This document shows, piece after piece, positions 4,401 to 14,151 of a stretch of DNA of 22,993 bases. The notes beneath the pieces are model-generated. The model ran no database searches and was not told the DNA's origin. It saw only the letters and a program-made list of their open reading frames with translations. Numbering within the stretch: the stretch's first letter is position 1; each line of letters opens with the position of its first letter. The DNA lies in IMG/VR virus record IMGVR_UViG_3300048908_000054, positions 1 through 22,993 of that record; one strand, written 5' to 3'. The stretch is from a virus. Made by a program: the position numbers and the translations under genes.

Positions 4401-4420
4401 CGGGCAGGCGTCGCCTCCCG
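4401..4420 (+). promoter_or_regulatory. strong hairpin after the portal gene
   Basis: CGGG-AGGC (4401-4409, with C4405 bulged) pairs with GCCT-CCCG (4413-4420) around a three-base loop GTC. It starts one base after the portal TAA. No T run follows, so it is not a normal intrinsic terminator; it may protect the 3' end of the upstream message or be part of the scaffold leader. Confidence 0.4.
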
Positions 4421-4457
4421 CTTACAGCCGTTCTCAAGGATTTGGGCGCGGCGTTTT

Positions 4458-4492
4458 GGCTTGGATAAGCCGCAAGCAAAGGTCGGATGACC
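4458..4492 (+). promoter_or_regulatory. two GGAT-loop hairpins in the scaffold leader
   Basis: Hairpin A is GGCTT-GGAT-AAGCC (4458-4471). Hairpin B is GGTC-GGAT-GACC (4481-4492), ending one base before the scaffold ATG at 4494. The only Shine-Dalgarno-like bases for the scaffold gene are the GGA of hairpin B's loop, six bases from the ATG, so folding presents the ribosome-binding bases in a loop. The same loop occurs twice before the capsid gene. This is the arrangement expected for an RNA-binding translational regulator of the CsrA type (GGA in a hairpin loop over the ribosome-binding site), but no such protein is seen here. Confidence 0.45.
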
Positions 4493-4493
4493 C

Positions 4494-5258
4494 ATGAAAC
4501 TGAAAACGATCGATATCGAAGGCAAGACTTACGCCATGCTCGAAGACGGCAAGCCGATCTATGAGCATTCCGACGGCAAGAGCATTCCCTTCGACGCCCC
4601 CGGCACGGTGGCGACCATCTCCCGCCTCAACGGCGAGGCCAAGGGCCATCGTGAGCGCGCAGAAGAGGCCCTGAAGACGCTCAAGGCGTTCGAAGGCATC
4701 GAAGACGCAGCCGCCGCCAAGAAGGCGCTGGAAACCGTCAAGAACCTCGACGCCAAAAAACTGGTTGACGCCGGCGAGGTCGAAAAGGTCCGCGCCGAGG
4801 CGATCAAGGCCGTGGAAGAGAAATACGCCCCGGTCATCGGCGAGCGCGACACGCTCAAGGCGGCGCTCGTTCAGGAGAAGGTTGGCGGCGCGTTCTCACG
4901 CTCCAAGCTGATCGCGGAAAAGCTGGCCATCCCGCCCGACATGGTCGAGGCCCGGTTCGGTTCGGCCTTCAAGGTCGAAGGCTCGGATGTCGTGGCTTAT
5001 GACGCAGGCGGCAACAAACTGTTTTCCCGGGCCAAGCCCGGCGAGGTCGCGGGGTTCGACGAAGCTCTCGAAATCCTGATCGACCAGTATCCCTACAAGG
5101 ACCACATCCTGAAAAGCTCCGGCGCCAGCGGCTCCGGCGCGCAGGGCGCGGGCAACGCCAACGGCGGCGGCAAGACCATGACGCGCGCGGCGTTCGACCA
5201 GCTTTCGCCCGAAGCCAAGTTCACGACGGCCCGCAGCGGCACCGTCATCACCGATTAA
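4494..5258 (+). CDS. capsid scaffolding protein (DUF6651-like)
   Basis: Scaffolds co-assemble with coat protein inside the prohead and then leave. The 254-aa protein starts MKLKTIDIEGKTYAMLEDGK, followed by a long charged, Ala/Glu/Lys-rich helical part (residues about 45-125), a more compact region and a Gly/Ser/Ala linker near 205-225, ending in a short segment with TARSGTVITD. The position between portal and major capsid protein, acidic coiled-coil character and small size fit scaffold. I recognise the N-terminal pattern as that of proteins annotated DUF6651. The gene lacks a classical Shine-Dalgarno sequence; its only candidate lies in a hairpin loop (see leader). Confidence 0.78.
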   Translation: MKLKTIDIEGKTYAMLEDGKPIYEHSDGKSIPFDAPGTVATISRLNGEAKGHRERAEEALKTLKAFEGIEDAAAAKKALETVKNLDAKKLVDAGEVEKVRAEAIKAVEEKYAPVIGERDTLKAALVQEKVGGAFSRSKLIAEKLAIPPDMVEARFGSAFKVEGSDVVAYDAGGNKLFSRAKPGEVAGFDEALEILIDQYPYKDHILKSSGASGSGAQGAGNANGGGKTMTRAAFDQLSPEAKFTTARSGTVITD

Positions 5259-5278
5259 CGCACCAAACACCGGCCGAT

Positions 5279-5315
5279 TCCCCGGATGGGGATAGGCGCT
5301 GAGGCCGGATGGCCT
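5279..5315 (+). promoter_or_regulatory. two GGAT-loop hairpins in the capsid leader
   Basis: Hairpin C is TCCCC-GGAT-GGGGA (5279-5292). Hairpin D is AGGCC-GGAT-GGCCT (5302-5315). Both have perfect 5-bp stems and the same four-base loop as the two scaffold-leader hairpins, while the stem sequences all differ, so the loop rather than the stem is conserved. They lie 50-90 bases before the capsid ATG, clear of its Shine-Dalgarno sequence (AGGA, 5353-5356). Confidence 0.45.
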
Positions 5316-5342
5316 GACCCCTTTCCAAACCCTCATCGCCAC

Positions 5343-5368
5343 TTCCCCATCTAGGAAAAATTCCCCAT
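5343..5368 (+). repeat. direct repeat TTCCCCAT, second copy overlapping the capsid start
   Basis: TTCCCCAT occurs at 5343-5350 and again at 5361-5368, where its AT belongs to the ATG. TTCCCC is also the left arm of hairpin C (5278-5283). All three copies could pair with the single GGGGA at 5288-5292, so the copy at the start codon competes with hairpin C for the same partner. Regulatory meaning is inferred. Confidence 0.3.
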
Positions 5369-6533
5369 GGCAAATACGCTTACCGGCCTCGTGCCGACCA
5401 TCTATGAAGCCCTCGACGTTGTCTCGCGCGAAATGGTCGGGTTCATTCCGGCCGTCTCGCGCAATTCCAGCGGCGAGCGCGCGGCGCTCAACCAGACGAT
5501 CATGGTCCCGATCGCCCCGGCTGTTTCGCTCACCAGCATCACCCCCGGCGTGACGGCGCCCAACGCCGGCGATCAGGTCATCAGCAACGTCTCGATGACC
5601 ATCAGCAAGTCGCAGTTCGCCCAGATCCGCTACACCGGCGAGGAACAGAAGGGCTTGCTCAACGCCGGTTCCTATCATGGCCTGCTCGTCAACCAGTTCT
5701 CGCAGGGCTTCCGCGCTTTGACCAACCAGATCGAAACCGATCTGTTCACCACGACCTATCAGAACGCCTCGCGCGCTTATGGCACCCCTGCCACTGCGCC
5801 GTTTGGCACCGCCGGCGATCTGTCCGACATCGCCCAGGTTCGCAAGATCCTCGACGACAACGGCGCCCCGCAGGGCGATTTGCAGCTTGTGCTCGGGTCC
5901 GCCGCGATGGCCAACCTGCGCGGCAAGCAAAACGTGCTGTTCAAGGTGAATGAAGCCGGCACCGAGCAGCTTCTGCGCGAAGGCATCATTGGCCGCCTCG
6001 AAGGCATGGACATTCGCAACTCCAACGCGATCACTGTCGTCACCAAGGGCACCGGCGCGTCCTATACCTCGGACACCGCCGGCTACGCCATCGGCGCGAC
6101 CTCGATCACGCTGATCACCGGCACCGGCACCGTTCTTGCCGGCGACACCGTGACGTTCGCGGGCGACTCCAACAAATACACTGTCGTCACCGGCGTCGCG
6201 GCCCCCGGCGCGATCACCATCGCCGCGCCTGGTCTGAGGCAGGCGATTGCGGCTTCCGCCGTCGCCATGACCGTTGGCGCGACCGACACCCCGAACGTCG
6301 CGTTCAGCCGTTCTGCCATCCAGCTTATCACCCGCTCGCCGGCCATGCCGGTCGGCCCGGACGGCGTGGCGATGGATATGGCGGACGATGTCATTCAGGT
6401 CACCGACCCGAAATCCGGCATTACCTTCGATGTCGCCGTGTACCGCCAGTACATGCAGATCGTCTACCAGATCCGCCTTGCTTGGGGCTACCAGTGCATC
6501 AAGCAGAACCACGCGGCAATTTTGCTGGGGTAG
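5367..6533 (+). CDS. major capsid protein, P22 coat (gp5) type
   Basis: Forms the icosahedral shell with an HK97-like fold. The 388-aa sequence begins MANTLTGLVPTIYEALDVVS, the typical opening of P22-coat-family proteins, and has the family's central Gly/Thr-rich insertion (residues about 225-305) containing a GDTVTFAGDSNKYTV segment. The C-terminus has DVAVYRQYMQIVYQIRLAWG. A weak AGGA lies ten bases before the ATG. It is preceded by the scaffold gene and a leader with two GGAT-loop hairpins, and followed by a terminator-like hairpin. P22-type coats normally go with short-tailed phages, whereas this one is coupled to a contractile tail. Confidence 0.93.
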   Translation: MANTLTGLVPTIYEALDVVSREMVGFIPAVSRNSSGERAALNQTIMVPIAPAVSLTSITPGVTAPNAGDQVISNVSMTISKSQFAQIRYTGEEQKGLLNAGSYHGLLVNQFSQGFRALTNQIETDLFTTTYQNASRAYGTPATAPFGTAGDLSDIAQVRKILDDNGAPQGDLQLVLGSAAMANLRGKQNVLFKVNEAGTEQLLREGIIGRLEGMDIRNSNAITVVTKGTGASYTSDTAGYAIGATSITLITGTGTVLAGDTVTFAGDSNKYTVVTGVAAPGAITIAAPGLRQAIAASAVAMTVGATDTPNVAFSRSAIQLITRSPAMPVGPDGVAMDMADDVIQVTDPKSGITFDVAVYRQYMQIVYQIRLAWGYQCIKQNHAAILLG

Positions 6534-11332: not shown

Positions 11333-11767
11333 ATGGCGAATATGAACCTTGGGCATGATATCGCCATCGATATCCTCGACCAATCGACCGGAACCATTCT
11401 CGTCACCTTCTCGAATTTCACCCATTTCGAGTGCAAGCCGATCACCAAGGCCGTCTCGAGCGAACCCGTCAACGGGCCGCCGATCTTCGATGATATCGAA
11501 AACGGCTGGGAAGGCTCATTTGAATATGACCGCGCGTCGAACGACATCGAGCTTTATTTCGCCAACCGCGAACAGGGCTATTTCACCAACGGCGCTCGTC
11601 CGGTTGCGGCCATCACCCAGACGATCCAGGAAAAAACCGGCGTCATCACGCAATATTCCTACACGGGCGTGGCGCTGAAACTGGATTCGGCCGGTTCGTG
11701 GAAGGCCGCTGACAAGGTGAGCCAGAAAGTGTCGTTCAAGGCCTCGCGCCGCCGCCTGGTTGTGTGA
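11333..11767 (+). CDS. tail tube protein
   Basis: Hexamers of this protein stack into the inner tube through which DNA passes. The 144-aa product starts at ATG 11333, six bases after GGAGG; the frame is open a little further (TTG 11321), but that codon overlaps the Shine-Dalgarno sequence. It is beta-rich, with the run GHDIAIDILDQSTGTILV at the start and a final KVSFKASRRRLVV strand, the usual style of P2 FII/Mu-type tubes. Location immediately after the sheath is diagnostic. The last 32 bases are overlapped by the converging minus-strand gene. Confidence 0.9.
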   Translation: MANMNLGHDIAIDILDQSTGTILVTFSNFTHFECKPITKAVSSEPVNGPPIFDDIENGWEGSFEYDRASNDIELYFANREQGYFTNGARPVAAITQTIQEKTGVITQYSYTGVALKLDSAGSWKAADKVSQKVSFKASRRRLVV

Positions 11768-12194
11768 TTTCGCATAACTCGCCGGCTTTGCGCCAATCCT
11801 CCCAAATCGCGGATTGCGCGTCTTCAAGATCGAGCTTCCCTCGGCAAACGAGGGAAGACAAGCACGTTTCGATTGCGTCTTTCTGCCGTGCTTCGTCAAT
11901 CGGCTGAAGCGCCAGATTGCGCCGGTCGATCGGATGGCCGCCCAACGCGAGCGGGATCAAATGGTCCAGTTCGTAGCGGTTGCGGCGCTCCATCGGCTCT
12001 CCGATCTGCGCCAGCATGCCGGCCTTGATCGCCTGCATGGTTGAAACATAGGGGCGGATTGTTCGCGTCCATCCGGACTGGCAGATCGTCGCGGCGATCG
12101 TGGCTTGCGTCACGTCAGGGTTGAGCGGCGGCAGTTCGGCGGCGAGTGATTGGCCTGCGCAAAGACAGGCGGCGAGCAAGAACATTCGAGACAT
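11736..12194 (-). CDS. secreted HNH-motif protein (moron)
   Basis: Reads against the tail genes. The start at 12194 gives a signal peptide (MSRMFLLAACLCAGQSLAA, probable cleavage before ELPP). The mature part of about 133 aa has ICQSGWTRTIRP, then YELDHLIPLALGG...NLALQP, which is the HNH-type beta-beta-alpha motif of a widespread small secreted family, and a C-terminal segment with four cysteines overall (in ICQ, ETC, LVC and ELC) that could make two disulfides. Whether it cuts DNA is unknown; the conserved DH and N are consistent with it. A longer frame to 12275 would add residues before the signal peptide and is unlikely. It likely affects the host envelope or competitors rather than virion assembly. 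Its end overlaps the tube gene by 32 bases. Confidence 0.8.
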   Translation of the reverse strand: MSRMFLLAACLCAGQSLAAELPPLNPDVTQATIAATICQSGWTRTIRPYVSTMQAIKAGMLAQIGEPMERRNRYELDHLIPLALGGHPIDRRNLALQPIDEARQKDAIETCLSSLVCRGKLDLEDAQSAIWEDWRKAGELCEITQPGGGARP

Positions 12195-12213
12195 CGTCAA
12201 CTTTCCCACGCCT

Positions 12214-12302
12214 CCCGCTAAGAGGCAAACGCGATCGCTTCCGGCTTCATTGGCCCGGCGGTCGTTTCTGACCACCTGAATCGCGTCAGGCCTTAGCGGG
12301 CC
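12214..12302 (+). promoter_or_regulatory. structured leader with two alternative folds before the chaperone gene
   Basis: In fold 1, GGCCCG (12252-12257) pairs with CGGGCC (12297-12302), enclosing GGTC-GTTTCT-GACC (12260-12273) and CCTGA-ATCGCG-TCAGG (12275-12290): a three-way junction. In fold 2, a perfect 9-bp pairing CCCGCTAAG (12214-12222) with CTTAGCGGG (12292-12300) uses part of the same right arm, so the two are mutually exclusive. The block ends nine bases before the chaperone Shine-Dalgarno GGAGA (12312-12316). It also lies between divergent genes and could hold an operator for the minus-strand gene. I saw no clear promoter on either strand. Confidence 0.35.
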
Positions 12303-12907: not shown

Positions 12908-13314
12908 ACCTTCTGCAATTCGCGGGCGCAATGGCGGCGGCGGCGGTCGAGATCGACCACGCCATGAGCGAGCCGATTGAAAAGGGCTGCAAGAAGCTCG
13001 AAAAATCCGCCAAGGATGCGATGGGGACTTACGAATTCGGCTGGGCGCCGCTCAAGCCGGAAACCATCGCCCGCAAGGCGCATGGCGACACGCCGTTGGT
13101 CGAAACAGGCGAATTGCGCGACAGCATCGAGCATAATTCCGACCACAAGGAAGGCTATGTCGGCACGAACAACGAAAAAGCCGTCTGGCATGAGTTTGGA
13201 ACCAGCACGATCCCGGCGAGGCCATTTCTCGGCGGGGCTGTCAATGCGGTTGGCGATGAAGTGAAGGAATTGTTCGGCGTCGCGGTGCAAAAGGCGATTA
13301 CGGGCCGTTCATAA
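12904..13314 (+). CDS. HK97 gp10-like / virion morphogenesis protein
   Basis: The 136-aa product has the usual gp10 features: an N-terminal helix (residues about 1-40), then WAPLKPETIARKAHGDTPLV, a TGELRDSI segment and the C-terminal motif VWHEFGTSTIPARPFLGGAV, recognisable in gp10-like and Mu gpG-like tail-completion proteins. ATG 12904 has a strong GGGAGGA (12891-12897) and overlaps the stop of the frameshift fusion. In most phages this protein is encoded before the sheath or tube; here it lies after the chaperone, so the order is unusual. The last 17 bases overlap the converging GIY-YIG gene. Confidence 0.82.
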   Translation: MNLLQFAGAMAAAAVEIDHAMSEPIEKGCKKLEKSAKDAMGTYEFGWAPLKPETIARKAHGDTPLVETGELRDSIEHNSDHKEGYVGTNNEKAVWHEFGTSTIPARPFLGGAVNAVGDEVKELFGVAVQKAITGRS

Positions 13315-13852
13315 GCGACGTGAAGACGTAAATTCCGACGCCGACTCCAACCGACGCCGCGAAGATCAGGATTTTTGTGTTGCGGCCCCCCCATGGAGCG
13401 GCGGGTTCTCCACGAGACGCGAGCCGCACTACTTCATCAATTTGGCGTGGCTCTATCTCTGCGATCTGCGAGCCGACGCGGTGAGCGGCGACGCTAATCG
13501 CGGCGATGCAACTTTCAAACGAGCACCCGAACCATTCGAGATTGACGTTTCGCCCCGCTAGGATCGTATGCGCCATTTTCTCGACGGCAACATGGTTGCC
13601 GCTCGGCGCGCAGCAATAGGCGATGGTCAGAGGCATCGCGTGCGCCGTTTGAAGTTCTGCAAGGCGGCGTGTCGGGTTGGTTGAACTCCCGACTTTGTAA
13701 AGCCCGTATGCGTCTTTGATGACATAGACGAACCCGCCGTTGATAGGCGCGTTTTGCGTCGTTCGCCCGCCGGTAAAGCCCAAGTCCTTCGGGCCGAGCA
13801 ACAATCCAGTCCGCAGGCCGAACAGGCGCGGGCCTCCGATAATAAAACGCAC
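13298..13852 (-). CDS. GIY-YIG (T5orf172/MUG113-like) protein with C-terminal membrane anchor
   Basis: A GTG start at 13852 is taken because it follows the upstream stop (13867) by 14 bases with a G-rich site before it; longer frames to 13951 overlap that gene. The 184-aa protein has a GIY-YIG core: VYVI at residues 42-45, YKVG at 52-55, RR at 62-63 and a candidate catalytic E91 in EKMAHTIL. It ends with a hydrophobic segment (about residues 162-180, ILIFAASVGVGVGIYVF). A membrane-anchored nuclease-fold protein paired with a small membrane protein suggests a role at the envelope, for example against incoming DNA, but this is inference. Activity is unproven. Confidence 0.75.
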   Translation of the reverse strand: MRFIIGGPRLFGLRTGLLLGPKDLGFTGGRTTQNAPINGGFVYVIKDAYGLYKVGSSTNPTRRLAELQTAHAMPLTIAYCCAPSGNHVAVEKMAHTILAGRNVNLEWFGCSFESCIAAISVAAHRVGSQIAEIEPRQIDEVVRLASRGEPAAPWGGRNTKILIFAASVGVGVGIYVFTSLMNGP

Positions 13853-13866
13853 GTTCGCCCCCGTAA

Positions 13867-14151
13867 TTACTCGGCCCGCTCTTCGACAATGATTTTCGCG
13901 CCTCGCGTGGCAAGGACGAGTGCGCCAAGAATGGCGTCTCCCATAATCCACGCGATAGCGATGAACCCGGTTGCGATTATCGCTGCTCCGGCCACGGCGT
14001 TGTCAGAAGCCCCCGCCATCGTCTTGCCCGTCTCGCTCCATGCGCCAATCATCCAAATGAGCATGAAGATATTGAACAAATAGAACAAAATCTTGAACAG
14101 CTTTCCGGCGAACCCGCGCTTGCGAACCTCTTTGCGGACAATAGTCGTCAT
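13867..14151 (-). CDS. small membrane protein, two spans (94 aa)
   Basis: Starts at 14151 with a strong GGAGGA site (14156-14161 on the other strand). The sequence begins MTTIVRKEVRKRGFAG, a basic N-terminus expected to stay in the cytoplasm, followed by a span at about residues 17-38 and a longer hydrophobic region at about 53-82, ending in a charged tail IIVEERAE. It is the first gene of a two-gene minus-strand unit with the GIY-YIG protein. Similar small proteins occur in alphaproteobacterial genomes; no function is known to me. Confidence 0.75.
   Translation of the reverse strand: MTTIVRKEVRKRGFAGKLFKILFYLFNIFMLIWMIGAWSETGKTMAGASDNAVAGAAIIATGFIAIAWIMGDAILGALVLATRGAKIIVEERAE

Follow-up and report, generated by a model that had tools for sequence, protein, structure and literature searches.

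The window, by which we mean the whole stretch of viral DNA analysed here (22,993 nt, positions 1 to 22,993 of IMG/VR record IMGVR_UViG_3300048908_000054), contains a late-region gene set comprising terminase, DUF4055 portal, scaffold and P22-coat-like capsid genes. The best match to the scaffold of the window among bacterial genomes was found in a Rhizobiales MAG (72%). Two ORFs on the minus strand lie amid the late operon: the ORF at 13298-13951 encodes a T5orf172/MUG113 domain protein, while the ORF at 11736-12275, for which Pfam gave no match, is possibly a cargo gene.

The leaders of the scaffold and capsid genes carry short hairpins with the loop GGAT (Table 1). The original prediction had described four of them, with the stems GGCTT, GGTC, TCCCC and AGGCC, and all four were recovered exactly (H2, H3, HA and HB). 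It had also assigned two hairpins to each leader, which holds for the capsid gene; the scaffold leader was found to have three, the overlooked fifth GGAT hairpin (H1) sitting inside the outer stem P1. H1, H2 and H3 are all present in the minimum-energy fold of 4420-4500, and the covariance model R1, for which the window is one of the training rows, matches 4416-4496 (E 5e-15). As had been proposed, one scaffold-leader hairpin covers the sole ribosome-binding bases: the GGA in the loop of H3 lies 6 nt upstream of the ATG.

On the plus strand of the window GGAT occurs 86 times, six times in the two leaders and 80 times elsewhere. A stem of at least four Watson-Crick pairs surrounds 4/6 leader occurrences and 0/80 of the others (Fisher p = 7e-6), i.e. 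the four hairpins of this kind on the plus strand of the whole window are all located in the scaffold and capsid leaders.

Table 1. Genes and RNA features of the scaffold and capsid region in window coordinates.
Feature	Position	Strand	Basis
P1 outer stem, GCCG 4427-4430 / CGGC 4449-4452, encloses H1	4427-4452	+	MFE fold of 4420-4500; covariance model R1
H1, CTCAA-GGAT-TTGGG, one G-U pair	4433-4446	+	Sequence and fold; equivalent in most relatives
H2, GGCTT-GGAT-AAGCC	4458-4471	+	Consensus helix 3: 97% of cells paired, double-sided changes at all 5 pairs
H3, GGTC-GGAT-GACC	4481-4492	+	Consensus helix 4: 98.9% of cells paired
Scaffold protein gene (DUF6651 / phrog_784), predicted autogenous regulator	4494-5258	+	PF20356 4.7e-40; phrog_784 2e-101; phrog_206 head scaffolding 7.6e-17; AlphaFold model
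Codons of the scaffold N-terminal beta-beta-beta-beta-alpha domain (residues 1-70), predicted RNA-binding	4494-4703	+	Model pLDDT 95; shared by every hairpin-bearing phage found; loop class co-varies with N46/A49
P1-like outer stem around HA, GCC 5273-5275 / GGC 5295-5297	5273-5297	+	Centroid fold of 5262-5320
HA, TCCCC-GGAT-GGGGA	5279-5292	+	Sequence; model R1 match 5272-5369, E 2.6e-5
HB, AGGCC-GGAT-GGCCT, 23 nt loop to loop from HA	5302-5315	+	Sequence; spacing in relatives
TCCCCATCT, pairs alternatively with HA loop and 3' arm (5284-5292), beside SD AGGA 5353-5356	5344-5352	+	Fold of 5262-5372
Major capsid protein gene, P22-coat-like, phrog_283	5367-6533	+	PF11651 1.2e-9; phrog_283 1e-106

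Conservation of the leader hairpins among relatives

We gathered 80 relatives by capsid, 80 by scaffold, 37 by scaffold in bacterial genomes, named phages and later 261 further loci. The usual order in the scaffold leader is terminator, P1 with its inner GGAT hairpin, H2, H3 and start codon, and many capsid genes are preceded by P1-H2. Most scaffold leaders and some capsid leaders (leaders of L083-L199) have an intrinsic terminator immediately 5' of the element, so that the element starts right behind the likely end of a transcript. Among named phages the element was found in Pseudomonas PS-1, Acinetobacter B1251, Klebsiella phage 5, Escherichia HK639, Caulobacter DMCA (with GGAA loops) and Rhizobium P106B. 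Its hosts comprise alpha-, beta- and gammaproteobacteria.

In 70 dereplicated leaders of relatives, a Watson-Crick stem of at least four pairs was present at 85/162 GGAT occurrences compared to 24/1617 elsewhere in the same loci (Fisher p about 1e-76); with G-U pairs allowed, the counts were 124/162 and 77/1617, respectively. In the relatives' loci as in the window, GGAT-loop hairpins are hence not equally common in coding DNA, an outcome that would have refuted the original prediction. Ranking of the tetraloops in the leaders placed GGAT first with 83 hairpins, followed by GGAA with nine and the next with two. Pairing at the four loop-adjacent positions was canonical in 94, 94, 88 and 82% with many pair types. 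In alignment A1, 84.2% of the cells were paired (64.7% in shuffles), and 154 double-sided changes were seen at 14/17 pairs (50.9 in shuffles); the covariation score was 0.545 compared to 0.189 for shuffled and at most 0.123 for slid alignments. Related phages therefore keep the GGAT loops while their stems undergo compensating changes, and the second refuting outcome that had been named, leaders of relatives lacking conserved loops, did not occur either. This strong compensatory change backs the argument that a conserved loop on a variable stem is typical of a site read by an RNA-binding regulator.

In scaffold leaders most loops follow one another at 19-25 nt, 24 nt being the commonest distance, and in most relatives the last loop lies at -8 to -12 from the start codon, where it is the SD itself, or at -18 to -25. 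The scaffold-leader hairpins were within 2 kcal/mol of the energy minimum in 45/61 cases, and are thus mostly at or near this minimum, as a preformed binding site would be. Two loci, L081 (2167-2261) and L253 (Microcystis phage Me-ZS1), carry G(T/C)GA(T/A) pentaloops as a third loop class.

Perfect short inverted repeats form in DNA as well, and the palindromes might act there as protein sites or as recombination or packaging signals. We regard this explanation as hardly credible, since the loop is strand-specific (on the antisense strand of the leaders 0/8 GGAT have such a stem), the position of the hairpins is fixed relative to the start codons, and the changes in the stems preserve pairing with G-U pairs included. 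In searches of Rfam 15 over the gathering score no family matched the leaders, the single match in the window being a tRNA; a search of the leaders at a lax threshold (E up to 5) returned nothing credible. On the basis of this comparative analysis, we consider the RNA element itself secure.

Candidate ligands of the hairpins

Unbiased covariance-model scans of 398 Pseudomonadota genomes, 249 Pseudomonas genomes and 289 further genomes of one class yielded 17 matches with E < 1e-9, and 17/17 were located directly upstream of a DUF6651 scaffold gene, two of them in decayed prophages. These loci also account for four matches near 1e-5 to 1e-6, which fall in their capsid leaders. A scaffold search around the remaining weak matches (E 1e-5 to 1e-2) turned up no scaffold gene close by, and they were taken as noise. 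In the decayed Pseudomonas prophages L235 and L238 the leader and the first scaffold codons persist, while the remainder of the gene is lost or broken. The chromosome of a Roseovarius MAG contains three near-identical copies of the phage region (L176, L177, L179).

Mixed combinations of genes indicate which of them the element accompanies. L010, L020, L021 and L027 have capsids of more than 70% identity together with another, phrog_206-type scaffold and lack the hairpins, whereas DUF6651 scaffolds in front of an unrelated capsid keep their scaffold-leader hairpins; in L191, L194 and L199 at least one hairpin is also found before the unrelated capsid. Similarity of the portal was not predictive, as L072 with a close portal homologue has no hairpins and L043 with a distant one has them. 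These combinations rule out the capsid and the portal as the tracked partner. Judged from gene content and sequence, the element follows the scaffold gene, and not the capsid or portal gene. On the capsid tree there are at least nine supported changes of scaffold type. Hairpins in the scaffold leader agree with the presence of the scaffold N-terminal domain (N-domain) in about 6.8 of 7 independent pairs with no conflict, and for the capsid leader agreement was found in about 5.1 of 9 independent pairs, likewise with no conflict (sign test, median p 0.06). The association between leader and N-domain is partly confounded by joint inheritance, because leader and N-terminus adjoin in the DNA; the capsid-leader test is less confounded but weaker than the scaffold-leader test.

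The distinguishing part of the scaffold comprises residues 1 to about 65, which are predicted to form four strands and a helix (pLDDT 95). Among distinct scaffolds, a scored scaffold-leader hairpin was present in 94/104 with the N-domain and in 0/13 without, and capsid-leader hairpins were present in 23/38 and 0/27, respectively. The ten N-domain scaffolds without a scored hairpin mostly have variant or weak hairpins, and none at all were detected in L180, L182, L183 and L190. The Pasteurella phage Pm86 has a scaffold without the N-domain and no element. Fold searches with the whole scaffold and with the N-domain gave no significant match, the best PDB entry for the N-domain being the PC4 DNA-binding domain (E = 1.0). 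The N-domain profile gave a further, weak match at scaffold residues about 160-210, which suggests an internal repeat of the strand-turn-strand unit. Scaffolds of the phrog_206 type without the N-domain (L010, L027, L048, L067, L072) have a different short hairpin over the SD (TCCCAAGGGGA) right before the start codon, which is possibly a second, independent scaffold operator.

To compare residues, we used about 40 scaffold columns that are conserved in 96 hairpin-bearing sequences. The lineage with AGNAA pentaloops (L007, L117, L198) deviates in these columns almost only at positions 46, 49, 53 and 54, and the lineage that lost the hairpins (L180, L182, L190) deviates at position 49 in 3/3 and at position 46 in one, with scattered single changes at 54 and 64 in L190 and at 225 in L182. 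The spacing of residues 46, 49 and 53 corresponds to a single face of the helix 35-64. In 137 new combinations of leader and N-terminus, T46 together with N49 or S49 was found in 6/6 AGNAA leaders, all scored loops within each of these leaders being of the AGNAA class, which may be a single clade; the new GGAN leaders had N46 in 127/129, A49 in 125/129 and T46 in 0/129. The residue L49 was not seen again in the 137 combinations. Loci L183 and L419 have no scored hairpins yet carry the usual N46/A49, and the GTGAT-loop locus L081 retains N46 and A49. The co-variation of N46/A49 with the loop class is the strongest hint of a contact between the scaffold N-domain and the loop.

The original prediction had allowed that a phage protein may bind here; these data support it and narrow the candidate to the scaffold N-terminal domain, which makes the scaffold protein the likely ligand of the hairpins. 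Another phage RNA-binding protein that is co-inherited with the scaffold type, e.g. a small late protein or the product of a portal-side gene, is an unlikely competitor, in which case the scaffold residues would co-vary by descent. Scaffold, leader and neighbouring genes do move jointly as a module, and binding of the scaffold to the hairpins is predicted from sequence. However, neither capsid nor portal tracks the hairpins, and the conserved columns that differ between loop classes are concentrated at 46-54 of one helix, the remaining conserved scaffold columns being unaffected; this pattern was repeated in the new loci. We give somewhat less weight still to a host factor shared by all Proteobacteria, such as a ribosomal protein, a 30S subunit standing by on the GGA loops or an RNase, which would read the hairpins and thereby enhance translation or stabilise the mRNA, with no phage ligand involved. 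Its appeal lies in the ability of GGA to pair with the anti-SD and in the occurrence of the element in hosts of all three proteobacterial classes. Anti-SD pairing would favour GGAG, though, and GGAG in the leaders has a stem in 0/22 cases; moreover, the hairpins are lost in phages with other scaffold types and the loop class co-varies with scaffold residues.

CsrA/RsmA had been put forward as a candidate on account of its preference for GGA in hairpin loops. The high-affinity CsrA consensus is ANGGAX or RUACARGGAUGU, with an A two bases before GGA (PMC4005645, PMC7652899), and the optimum for bridging is more than 18 nt between sites (PMC7652899). The leaders do have a CsrA-like layout: each has several sites with GGA in a hairpin loop, one site lies over the SD, and the spacing is about 24 nt. 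Moreover, csrA was found in 4/13 element-carrying host genomes, namely of Pseudomonas, Acinetobacter and Azotobacter hosts. In the other 9/13, some of which are drafts or MAGs, a csrA gene (PF02599) was not found; these are five alphaproteobacterial and four betaproteobacterial hosts (Rhizobiales MAG, Roseovarius, Shinella, Aminobacter, Kaistia, Xenophilus, Comamonas, Alcaligenes and Pararobbsia). The window itself encodes no csrA. Most loops are GGAT, GGAA or GGAC and thus contain GGA, but they are tetraloops and not ANGGAX hexaloops, an A at -2 occurs in only 4/124 stems, and the variants AGAT, TGAT, GTGAT and AGNAA disrupt the GGA core, the GTGAT and AGNAA classes having no GGA in the loop at all. 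In addition, the element follows the phage scaffold type and not the host. Host gene content, loop sequence and loop variants rule out CsrA as the general ligand: with the gene not found in 9/13 hosts and the A at -2 so rare, CsrA cannot in general have selected these sites. That host CsrA/RsmA binds the GGA loops and represses late-gene translation throughout is thus very improbable, and this part of the original prediction is not supported, although CsrA could touch the sites in Pseudomonas or Acinetobacter.

The capsid leaders

In capsid leaders with two hairpins the spacing is 22-25 nt in 21/24 cases, and the loops lie at -41 to -86 from the start codon, i.e. beyond the usual ribosome footprint, which makes direct exclusion of the ribosome unlikely at the capsid gene. 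The capsid-leader hairpins of relatives are often energetically unfavourable compared to alternative folds. In the window, the isolated 59-nt fold (5262-5320) contains HA and HB, whereas the longer fold (5262-5372) favours an alternative structure in which 5284-5292 pairs with 5344-5352 (p = 0.023 by shuffling; consistent in some relatives only). Forcing the hairpins costs 11 kcal/mol compared to this alternative fold. The alternative pairing of HA together with this cost therefore leaves room for a protein-stabilised switch.

A comparable alternative fold upstream of the capsid SD was also seen in L003, L019, L163 and L199. A general switch in capsid leaders was rejected: p < 0.05 was reached in only 6/35 leaders, and forcing the hairpins shifted access to the SD in no consistent direction (8 up, 3 down). 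The capsid genes of L007, L009, L011-L018, L021, L028 and L048 have an apparent hydrophobic N-terminal extension of ~50 residues (e.g. MKSFISKIRVLTLAAIAFVVAIYPMATMAK) before the conserved capsid start, as read from the upstream sequence.

A putative autogenous operator

We propose that the scaffold protein regulates head assembly autogenously and that the hairpins are the operator to which it binds, a reading that the leader and scaffold sequences make probable. A conserved RNA structure is present at the ribosome-binding site of the putative regulator's own gene, as judged from loop position and covariation; the element occurs only with its cognate protein (17/17 strong genome matches, 0/13 scaffolds without the N-domain, tree-corrected pairs); and the loop class changes with scaffold residues (T46 in 6/6 new AGNAA and 0/129 GGAN leaders, possibly within a single clade). 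The scaffold mRNA leader would fold into P1 (with H1), H2 and H3, presenting GGAU loops at near-fixed spacing, and the scaffold N-domain would recognise these loops through one helix face with the residues around N46 and A49. As the loop spacing is regular, we suggest that the scaffold binds as a dimer or oligomer that holds adjacent loops at the same time. Scaffold protein that is free, and not in proheads, would occupy H3 and stop its own translation; since the last loop is the SD or lies just upstream of it, the bound protein would exclude the ribosome. We infer such repression at the scaffold gene and the sensing of assembly, and we likewise infer the physical binding and any effect on the capsid gene. 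There, the two-hairpin core of the capsid leader may let the scaffold act on the capsid mRNA, so that the two products would be made in proportion.

King, Casjens and colleagues reportedly observed that unassembled P22 scaffolding protein reduces its own synthesis at a post-transcriptional level. This protein (gp8) is likewise the scaffold of a P22-coat-type head, under control that is post-transcriptional and tied to assembly. We know of no operator hairpins of this kind for P22, and to our knowledge the throttling of P22 scaffold synthesis has been observed for decades without a defined RNA operator.

The coat operators of RNA phages (MS2/R17, Qbeta, PP7) resemble the arrangement proposed here in that a phage structural protein represses via a small hairpin with a conserved loop and a free stem, binding in the present case being predicted. 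The present system differs in its unrelated protein fold and loop, its three plus two hairpins and its occurrence in a tailed DNA phage. In autogenous leaders of ribosomal proteins, surplus assembly protein represses its own mRNA, as would be the case here; mimicry of another RNA target, however, was not identified, and the leaders are the only known sites. The TwoAYGGAY motif consists of two hairpins with GGA-containing loops; neither this nor any other Rfam motif matches the leaders of the window. The leader sites of CsrA/RsmA and the CsrB/RsmZ sponges have in common with the element that a leader carries several hairpins with GGA loops, that one of these is on the SD, and that a dimer could bridge the spacing (PMC7652899, PMC4005645). 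Unlike these, the element closes its stem directly with a GGAU tetraloop and lacks the A at -2; it also has loop variants without GGA and occurs in hosts in which CsrA was not found. By analogy, the element would work like an autogenous translational operator as in P22 feedback or RNA-phage coat repression, its likeness to CsrA leaders being one of layout only.

No description of the element turned up in a literature search on GGAU phage hairpins, on the autoregulation of scaffolds, on DUF6651 and on RNA motifs of phages; a 1985 P22 paper and a 2017 catalogue of 224 RNA motifs were outside the reach of this search and could contain one. The element adds an RNA family that is missing from Rfam. 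More tentatively, and with slightly less than even confidence, we suggest a new RNA-protein recognition system in which tandem GGAU tetraloops, set at a near-fixed pitch of 24 nt, are read by a scaffold domain that has no recognisable structural relatives. The system would serve as a built-in sensor of assembly and set the synthesis of scaffold and capsid. It would have two or more mutually orthogonal loop classes, N46/A49 going with GGAN tetraloops and T46 plus N49 or S49 with AGNAA pentaloops; the capsid leaders may represent a protein-stabilised RNA switch. For swap experiments the analysis offers two loop classes, along with a concrete candidate operator, a domain predicted to bind RNA and residues that may make the contact; the candidate operator is available in phages of laboratory hosts, namely the E. 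coli phage HK639, the Caulobacter phage DMCA and the Pseudomonas phage PS-1. It could give a new orthogonal RNA-binding tag, and for the phages themselves it assigns a likely role to phrog_784 / DUF6651.
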